NCBI GenBank assembly: GCA_905235375.1 | Contig: CAJOLH010000013.1 | Coordinates: forward strand, 1 to 64,000 | Reading direction: 5' to 3' | Source of the DNA: an uncultured Bacteroidales bacterium | GTDB lineage: Bacteria; Bacteroidota; Bacteroidia; Bacteroidales; UBA3663 | DNA: 64,000 nucleotides | Shown: positions 44,478 through 47,287 of the stretch, in pieces | How positions within the stretch are numbered: position 1 is the first letter of the stretch | Layout of the letters: each line of letters opens with the position of its first letter | Made by a program: the position numbers and the translations under genes | The notes under the pieces: model-generated | Seen by the model: the letters and a program-made list of their open reading frames with translations, nothing else | Database searches by the model: none | Told to the model about the DNA's origin: nothing

Positions 44478-44519
44478 CCCCACAGAAGTGGGGCCCCAAA
44501 TGCCTGTTAACAGGCATTT
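44478..44519. repeat. Two adjacent hairpins in the etfB-etfA gap
   Basis: CCCCAC-AGAA-GTGGGG (44478-44493) and perfect 22-bp palindrome AAATGCCTGTTAACAGGCATTT (44498-44519). Confidence 0.9.
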
Positions 44520-45399
44520 AGCCAATAATCTTATCGTTCAACAATTCTACAATCAGTCCCTCCACGTCGGCATCGCTGCTGGTGAGGGTCTTGCTCTCCT
44601 TGGCCTTGAAGACGATGTTCTTCACGGTCTTCACATTGGTCGGAGAGCCGGTCTTGCCCACCTGCTTCATGTCGGCATTGATGTCGGCAGCACCCCACTG
44701 GGTGATGTTGAGGTAAGGCTTGGCAGCAATGGCTTCAGCCAATTTCTCGGCCTGTTCGGGCGTGCGCTCGGCAGGAGCTGTAGCGTTCTTGTACTTCATG
44801 ACACGCTTGGCGTTGCGTGGACGGCAGGGAGCAGCCGAACCATTCACGGTGACAACGAGTGGGAGAGGAGCCTCAACGGTCTCAACACCACCGTCGATGT
44901 GACGCTTGATGACGACCTTCTTGGCTTCAGGGTCAAGGTTGAGGATTTCTTCGGCGTAGGTCACTTGGGTCAGACCCAGTTTCTCTGCCACCTGAGGACC
45001 TACCTGTGCCGTGTCGCCGTCGATGGCCTGACGACCGCCAAGGATGATGTCGAATCCTCCAATCTTTCTAATAGCTTGGGCAATAGTGTAAGAGGTAGCA
45101 AGGGTATCGGCGCCGCCGAGACAGCGGTCGGTGATTACATAACCGGCATCAGCGCCACGATAGAGCGCTTCACGAATAACCTCAGCAGACTTGGGGAGAC
45201 CCATGGTAACGACCGAAACAGTGGAACCAGGGAACTGCTCCTTGAGGCGAAGCGCCTGCTCGAGTGCATTGAGGTCATCGGGATTGAAGACTGCAGGAAG
45301 GGCAGCACGATTGACGGTGCCTTCGGGAGTCATGGCGTCAGGACCCACATTGCGGGTGTCGGGTACCTGCTTGGCAAGTACGATAATCTTTAGTGCCAT
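44518..45399 (-). CDS. etfB: Electron transfer flavoprotein subunit beta
   Basis: 293 aa, MALKIIVLAKQVPDTRNVGPDAM. Confidence 0.95.
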   Translation of the reverse strand: MALKIIVLAKQVPDTRNVGPDAMTPEGTVNRAALPAVFNPDDLNALEQALRLKEQFPGSTVSVVTMGLPKSAEVIREALYRGADAGYVITDRCLGGADTLATSYTIAQAIRKIGGFDIILGGRQAIDGDTAQVGPQVAEKLGLTQVTYAEEILNLDPEAKKVVIKRHIDGGVETVEAPLPLVVTVNGSAAPCRPRNAKRVMKYKNATAPAERTPEQAEKLAEAIAAKPYLNITQWGAADINADMKQVGKTGSPTNVKTVKNIVFKAKESKTLTSSDADVEGLIVELLNDKIIG

Positions 45400-45483
45400 A
45401 AATTAAATAATGTATATTTAAATTGTTTCTTTGTTGTTTCTTCTTTTTTGAATAATGACAATGATTGTTCTAAATAATCGATG

Positions 45484-45515
45484 CAAAGGTATAGAAAAAA
45501 AACGAGCCTGCAAAG
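45484..45515 (-). promoter_or_regulatory. etfB promoter
   Basis: Minus strand TTTG-N19-TACCTTTG. Confidence 0.7.
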
Positions 45516-45661
45516 CGATTGATTCGAAATTCAGCGGGTTATCCCTCCAAAATGCCCGATTTTGATACTTTTGGAACGTAGATAATGCACAATTTTGCGA
45601 AAAGTGTGCATCTATTTTGTCGGAAAACTGCTTCGAAAACGAAATGAGTGATTCATGTTCG

Positions 45662-46123
45662 TGCCATGACCAATCTCGGCCAAGAAAGGTCATGCTCCTG
45701 TAGAAGAATAACCAATTTTGGCCAAGAAAGGTTATGCTCCTACAGAAGAATAACCAATTTTGGCCAAGAAAGGTTATGCCTCTATCGAAGCAAGCATTCT
45801 CACGGCCGACAGAGTGCTTTTTCCGATTGGAGCATACCCATTTTTAGCCAGGAAAGGTCATGCTCTCACCGAAGAATAACCAATCCTGGCCAAGAAAGGT
45901 TATGCCTCCATCGAAGCAAGTACTATCTCGGCCGACAGAGTGCTCTATCCAGTCGGAGCATACCCAATTTCGGCCAAGAAAGGTCATGCCTTCAGCGTGG
46001 CATAACGATTTCAAGTATCAAATCTGTATGCTTCAATCTTCGCATACCTAATCTTGGCCAAGAAAGGTCATGCTCCCGCAGAAGAATAACCAATCTTGGC
46101 CAAAAAAGGTTATGCGACGGAAA
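45662..46123. repeat. Tandem array of eleven 42-bp units, each an imperfect palindrome centred on GGCC
   Basis: Manual unit-by-unit alignment; all units exactly 42 bp; pairing register i+j=37 kept in every unit. Confidence 0.93.
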
Positions 46124-46176
46124 TAAATTCGTAGTCCTCCATTGAGACCTAAGTTACTGGTTTGTATTATGAAAAA

Positions 46177-46214
46177 AAGTGGATGCATTGCTATAAAGCT
46201 ACACATCCACTATT
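46177..46214 (-). terminator. Intrinsic terminator of asd
   Basis: Minus strand AGTGGATG-N18-CATCCACT TTTTTTC. Confidence 0.85.
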
Positions 46215-46277: not shown

Positions 46278-47287
46278 TTATTTGTTGAATCCGTTGTTGG
46301 CAATGAGCCACTCGGCAATCTGTACGGCATTGAGGGCAGCGCCTTTCTTGATCTGGTCGCCAACGAGCCAGAACGAGAGACCGTGGTCATCGGCCAGATC
46401 CTTGCGGATGCGGCCTACATAAACATCGTCCTTGCCGGCGAGGAAGAGGGGCATCGGGTACTCTTTCTTTTCGGGATTGTCCATGAGCTGTACGCCTTCG
46501 CCCTTGCGGATTGCCTCCTTGAAGTCCTCAATGCTCACTGGCTCCTCGGTCTCGACCCAAACGGCCTCGGAGTGGCTGCGAAGCGATGGGACACGCACAC
46601 AGGTGGCTGAGCAAAGTGCATCGGTGTGCATGATCTTGCGTGTCTCGTTGTACATCTTCATCTCCTCCTTGGTGTAGCCGTTCTCGGTGAAGACATCAAT
46701 CTGAGGAATGACGTTATAGGCAAGCTGATAGGCGAACTTCTCGACGGTGACAGGCTCACCGTTGAGCACTTGGCGATACTGTGTCTCCAGTTCCTTCATG
46801 GCTGCGGCTCCTGCACCTGATGCAGCTTGATAGGAAGCGACACGAATCTTCTTAATATGGCTGATGTTCTCGATGCACTGGAGAACCACAACCATCATGA
46901 TGGTGGTGCAGTTGGGATTGGCAATGATTCCCCTTGGTCGAACGAGCGCATCCTTGGCATTGCACTCGGGCACTACAAGGGGTACATCGGGATCCATGCG
47001 GAATGCCGAACTGTTGTCAATCATCACGGCGCCATACTTCGTGATGTCGGCTGCAAACTCCTTCGATGTGCCACCGCCTGCCGAAGTGAAGGCGATATCC
47101 ACGCCCTTGAAGTGTCGTGCTTCAGTTCCTTGACAACGATGTCCTTGCCACGGAAGTTATAGGTACGGCCTGCAGAACGGCTTGAACCGAACAGCAGAAG
47201 TTCATCGATAGGAAAGTTGCGTTCGTCGAGTACGCGAAGAAATTCCTGTCCCACGGCGCCACTGGCACCAACAATTGCTACTCTCAT
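46278..47287 (-). pseudogene. asd: Aspartate-semialdehyde dehydrogenase with single-base frameshift
   Basis: Two overlapping ORFs: [17 protein letters not shown]...VVKELKHD and [19 protein letters not shown]...; frames meet at about 47113. Confidence 0.85.

Follow-up and report, generated by a model that had tools for sequence, protein, structure and literature searches.

Array at the asd-etfB locus

The window analyzed here is a stretch of 64,000 nucleotides from an uncultured Bacteroidales bacterium (GenBank assembly GCA_905235375.1, contig CAJOLH010000013.1, positions 1 to 64,000). Between an asd-like and an etfB-like gene it carries, at 45662-46123, an array of eleven contiguous 42-bp dyad units, each an asymmetric quasi-palindrome (Table 1). 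Around each dyad, 9 to 12 of 15 position pairs are complementary compared with a window mean of 3.8, and a count of 10 or more is reached at only 0.16% of positions. An initial annotation of the window had described eleven contiguous palindromic units with a higher-order A-C-B repeat, and this description holds. Tandem Repeats Finder independently returned periods of 42 and 126 at the array, the latter confirming that the A-C-B order is repeated. The pair states given in that annotation are correct, with mismatches left out at 7:30 (A-C in units 5, 8, and 10), at 8:29 (units 5, 8, 9, and 10), and at 11:26 and 12:25 (A-A in most units). The placement of the array between the end of asd and the etfB promoter was borne out by eye; a sigma-70 and short-loop scan picked up neither the etfB promoter nor the asd terminator.

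Three unit classes with one centre in common were distinguished. Class A units have a CATRMCC..TYTTGGCC core and class C units an AGCAYTC..CGGCCG core. Class D is rare and has no GGCC; it recurs in arrays L042, L232, and L235, so that unit 9 of the window, previously taken for a unit decayed in sequence, belongs to a recurrent class. Only one A/C hybrid was found among 592 classified units.

Table 1 Features of the window at and around the array
Feature	Position	Strand	Remark
Array of eleven 42-bp quasi-palindromic units	45662..46123	+	Strand chosen to put the alpha half first (A at unit position 12)
Units 1-3, class A (CATRMCC..TYTTGGCCAAGA..GGTYATG)	45662..45787	+	
Unit 4, class C (AGCAYTCT.ACGGCCGACAGAGTGCT)	45788..45829	+	
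Units 5-6, class A	45830..45913	+	
Unit 7, class C	45914..45955	+	
Unit 8, class A	45956..45997	+	
Unit 9, class D, without GGCC core (arms CATAACGATTT / AAATCTGTATG)	45998..46039	+	
Units 10-11, class A	46040..46123	+	
165-amino-acid open reading frame (ORF) through the array	45648..46145	+	Rejected as a gene; frame not common to other arrays
etfB-like gene, downstream of the array	44518..45399	-	Name taken from the initial annotation; 98% identical orthologues in four array-bearing relatives
TATACCTTTGC, -7 box upstream of etfB, matching the Bacteroidetes consensus TAnnTTTG	45483..45493	-	By eye
Terminator after asd (GTGGATG..CATCCAC hairpin, then a T run)	46179..46210	-	By eye
asd-like gene, upstream of the array	46278..47102	-	Gene probably starts further upstream
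Hairpin (GATAATGCAC..GTGCATC) between the array and the etfB promoter	45581..45614		Kept in G003, G004, G006, and G007
Separate tandem repeat, 11-bp unit AAGGGTAGTAA	51129..51210		7.5 copies, 94% matches

Distribution, unit number, and position

The array belongs to a dispersed family. In the window's own genome (G000; 3.87 Mb in 125 contigs), a single-unit search gave 45 matches and a reversed control gave none. The matches that were extracted were located in arrays, and isolated units were few or absent in this unbiased search. Together with further searches, at least 25 arrays were found in this genome. In a family sample of 15 genomes from one uncultured ruminant Bacteroidales genus, six genomes had 20 to 70 triple-unit matches each and nine had none; among the matches listed, arrays were confined to these six genomes and the metagenome-assembled genome (MAG) RUG465. 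The named carriers are rumen and omasum MAGs (Bacteroidales RGIG7573, RGIG7607, RGIG8089, and Tb.RUG.418, and Prevotellaceae RUG465). Among the matches listed, those outside the five array-bearing rumen MAGs had low dyad-symmetry scores, the best-scoring outsider (L106, on a short GC-rich contig) reaching 0.59; matches in other organisms look like coding repeats. A GGCC triplet pattern in a genome of another family (G049) was set aside as chance matches in apparently coding DNA of high GC, and none of seven pattern matches on viral contigs was palindromic. No published description of these arrays was found in the open-access PMC literature. The search for other copies that the initial annotation had suggested thus recovered copies genome-wide and in relatives with the dyad retained; copy number, whose variation it had proposed to test, is nearly fixed.

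Across five genomes, 56 of 65 arrays have 9 to 12 units, and 495 of 565 unit-to-unit steps are exactly 42 bp. Mean unit numbers are 11.4 +/- 0.7 in G000, 10.2 +/- 0.8 in G004, and 9.8 +/- 1.0 in G007, species typically standing at about 10 or 11 units per array (420-462 bp). Two further arrays, found later, are truncated by the end of their contig. Short-read collapse is unlikely to have produced the narrow range, since adjacent units are not identical and L209 and L230, which are orthologous, share their ten-unit class order across separate assemblies. Many arrays (L035, L037, L038, L039, L041, L205, and L224 among them) carry at one end an additional unit, either partial or a degenerate class C, and the group L205, L206, L214, L223, and L224 has a hairpin (GGTCATTCC..GGAATGACTTTT) at the array end. 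Some arrays match chiefly as class C units (G000:C2:23542-23938 and C76:5322-5763), and in several, GGGC or GCGC replaces the GGCC core.

Every array examined is intergenic, lying between convergent genes in 16 cases, tandem genes in 11, and divergent genes in 8, with 4 undetermined, as judged with a simple longest-ORF gene caller. The flanking genes are varied, with no transposase seen on reading them, although no family search was made, and no promoter or terminator is consistently shared by the array ends. Many arrays are orthologous between species, their flanking proteins being about 86-93% identical. The etfB-asd array has 11 units in G000, 10 in G004 and in G007, and 6 in G006, with the same unit-class order, and ten units are retained beside etfB in G003, which brings the etfB-adjacent array to five species; the etfB-asd gap in G001 and G012 holds no array. 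Identity between orthologous units is 95-96% in the invariant skeleton and 79-83% at other unit positions, a comparison that is partly circular because the skeleton was derived from the consensus.

Flanking genes switch exactly at array ends between some species (L255 in G003 versus the window from 46124 onward; L205/L206 versus L214), as if the arrays were rearrangement breakpoints, although short-read misjoining at repeats could also explain this. The EtfB protein of the array-bearing genome G011 (G011:C72, L266) is only 70% identical to that of the window, and several other array-flanking proteins of G011 are more than 90% identical to those of G000; the G011 gene may have been replaced or may be a second copy.

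Polarity and strand skew

Each unit consists of an alpha half (A at position 12) followed by a beta half (T at position 12). At the array level, 46 of 54 arrays are mostly asymmetric, and the direction is coherent along the array in 45 of 50. Skew was taken from the G content of third codon positions, within windows no longer than 20 kb, by comparing plus- and minus-strand genes, which removes the coding effect. The alpha-to-beta direction of class A units follows the strand that is G-rich at these silent sites in 32 arrays and opposes it in 3, with agreement of 10:0 in G007, 8:1 in G004, and 9:2 in G000. When orthologous loci, grouped by hand, were collapsed, the ratio was 15:3 (p = 0.0075). 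The orientation and skew thresholds were chosen during the analysis, and the sign was the same at all three orientation thresholds tried. Class C alone gave a weaker trend (10:4, p = 0.18). At the same threshold, polarity tracks skew better than it tracks the coding strand (36:8 versus 15:29). The G-rich strand is also enriched in T, but the bases on it are A/A at position 12 and mostly A..C at 7/30; mutational skew therefore predicts the opposite polarity.

Alternative explanations

The initial annotation had also raised an array of structured RNA or cruciform elements, and a noncoding RNA of about ten hairpins, cruciforms, or single-stranded DNA hairpins with base pairing as the function would account for a dyad symmetry that is kept across unit classes with different arms. 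Its claim that paired positions change together stands for differences between unit classes and fails inside them: over 656 collected units, covariation is a difference between classes only. Within class A, complementary pairs numbered 137 against 212 expected from independent halves at position 7 (z about -7) and 77 against 196 at position 12 (z about -12), values whose significance is overstated by unit-level counting because the units are related by descent; at class C position 15, 45 were observed and 84 expected. This anti-complementarity arises because the unit is asymmetric, with A12 in the alpha half and T12 in the beta half. No wobble preference was seen, the G-T and A-C cells being equal at 167 each in the 153 G000 units first collected. 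As single-stranded DNA, units fold weakly and alike on either strand (about -3.6 kcal/mol in class A and -4.3 in class C), with no strand preference. Rfam gave no family at the gathering threshold, only sub-threshold matches to microRNA models, and neither array end has a consistent promoter. The absent or negative covariation within classes argues against structured RNA and cruciforms, which are very unlikely here; unpaired half-site variation without a wobble preference is what double-stranded half-sites would show. A translated repeat protein of 14-amino-acid units can practically be dismissed. Although 42 is divisible by 3, the window frame is open over 165 amino acids, and some arrays read AYPILAKKGHA / STLTADRVLSPIG with few stops, any open frame was found in only 21 of 65 arrays, on various strands and in various frames, and in 26 arrays some steps depart from a multiple of 42. 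Six-frame translation, stop positions, 3-base periodicity (not seen in class C), and ORF extents led to rejection of the coding reading, and none of 14 tested arrays lay within a longer gene.

The main rival is a family without present function for the cell, resembling bacterial interspersed mosaic elements (BIMEs), whose palindromic units once spread, are kept alike by gene conversion, and are inherited at orthologous sites. It is a serious though rather unlikely possibility. Like BIMEs, the arrays are intergenic mosaics that combine at least two classes of palindromic unit; they are clade-restricted, and similarity among units is higher within an array (0.83) than from one array to another (0.76), a sign that some homogenisation takes place; against it stand the near-fixed unit number, the scarcity or absence of isolated units, the polarity aligned with strand skew, and the lack of both a GTAG/CGTC end tag and, in G000, G003, G004, and G006, a match to the repetitive extragenic palindrome (REP)-associated tyrosine transposase (RAYT; Y1_Tnp, PF01797). 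A bidirectional transcription-end or insulator element, keeping transcription from running on between adjacent genes either as a DNA roadblock or through hairpin RNA, would suit the intergenic position of every examined array, the predominance of convergent settings (16 of 35), and a convergent gene end 18 bp from the array at L037/L138. It is nevertheless improbable, because an ordinary terminator adjoins some arrays (window, L037, L138, and L241), 8 of 35 arrays lie between divergent genes, the unit hairpins are weak, and polarity fits strand skew better than the coding strand. Sites of recombination or rearrangement, for instance for a site-specific recombinase, are highly doubtful: asymmetric halves about a symmetric core resemble recombinase sites and flanks are swapped at the G003 etfB array and between L205/L206 and L214, but homologous recombination or misassembly at repeats needs no dedicated enzyme, positions are largely conserved, and ten-site arrays are unnecessary for recombination.

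Comparison with known systems

The closest known kind is REP/BIME (PMC3733652), which likewise comprises intergenic imperfect palindromes of about 40 bp in several unit classes, forming mosaic arrays and restricted to a clade; palindromic units of 20-40 bp, intergenic and in many copies, define REP/BIME and are found here. The GTAG and CGTC families carry an unpaired GTAG or CGTC tag at one unit end (PMC3733652). Of the 656 units, 15 contain GTAG and 31 contain CTAC, and CGTC/GACG falls mainly inside class C at the core. REP/BIME units occur predominantly as singles and dimers, in alternating orientation, whereas 9 to 12 same-direction units occur here, in a 42-bp head-to-tail register of about 10-11 units at conserved loci with replication-like polarity. 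GTAG families have an associated RAYT transposase; PF01797 had one match in G007, and G011 was outside the search. A RAYT-driven REP reading is not supported, as the end tag, the RAYT partner, and the single/dimer layout were not found.

Asymmetric sites whose orientation follows replication direction are known from Tus-Ter and RTP-Ter, the RTP-Ter site of Bacillus subtilis being a pseudo-palindrome whose two halves are unequal. Such sites occur singly and cluster at the terminus, whereas here about ten sites per locus occur at 25 or more loci, and the polarity is one relative to silent-site skew (15:3 by locus). The parS, matS, SlmA, Noc, and KOPS sites are also dispersed chromosomal protein sites, KOPS being polar along the replichore, but they are short single motifs and not fixed-length arrays of 42-bp dyads. 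Plasmid iterons and centromere arrays (parC, tubC) are helically regular, dimer-bound, and of about ten repeats; they occupy one locus per replicon, in contrast to dozens per chromosome here, and no partition genes adjoin the window locus. The GGCC core also recalls Dnd phosphorothioation sites, which are not supported, DndC not having been found in G000, G003, G004, G006, or G007.

Favoured explanation

The explanation preferred here, tentatively and from sequence, is a dispersed, clade-specific chromosomal element consisting of arrays of dyad sites for a dimeric protein, with a polar action on chromosome organisation or replication. A near-fixed number of dyads, occurrence in all gene orientations, conserved places, and skew-aligned polarity fit such arrays acting at the chromosome level. 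The initial annotation had proposed a helically phased array for a dimeric DNA-binding protein at this one locus. Regular dyad sites outside the predicted transcripts keep it a candidate site for such a protein; the dispersed family, the near-fixed unit number, the orthologous positions, and the polarity lay beyond the view of that annotation. Each array strings about 10-11 dyad units head to tail between genes; under the preferred explanation, each unit would be a double-stranded binding site for a protein dimer. With dyads four helical turns apart, about eleven dimers could sit on one face of the helix as a polar cluster of set length. More speculatively, these clusters may act chromosome-wide and not as regulators of neighbouring genes, with roles in nucleoid organisation, in segregation, or in a one-sided encounter with replication forks or a translocase.

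Several observations weigh against this explanation. Steps of 41 bp (27 of 565) and 43 bp (14 of 565) occur, so exact phasing is not absolute. Class D has no GGCC, and one protein would need to recognise divergent arms, or several proteins would be involved. The element is dispensable within the genus, since nine of the 15 genomes lack arrays. The contig with the ribosomal operon gave no leading-strand assignment, and polarity is referenced to skew alone. All genomes compared are fragmented assemblies, and no partner protein of the arrays was identified.

The arrays look like an undescribed chromosome element. It is possible, and put forward with greater reserve, that the element is wholly new: fixed-length polar dyad arrays of about ten units at 25 or more conserved intergenic sites, replication-oriented, each of which would load a polar protein cluster of limited length with a role in organising, segregating, or guarding the chromosome. 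Tandem repeats normally change copy number; dozens of these arrays stay near ten units, and many occupy matching loci in different species. The arrays are a ready-made bait for a candidate protein, with the array-free species of the same genus as natural controls. If a protein assembly that counts and points lies behind them, they would add a new type to the chromosome-organising elements of bacteria.
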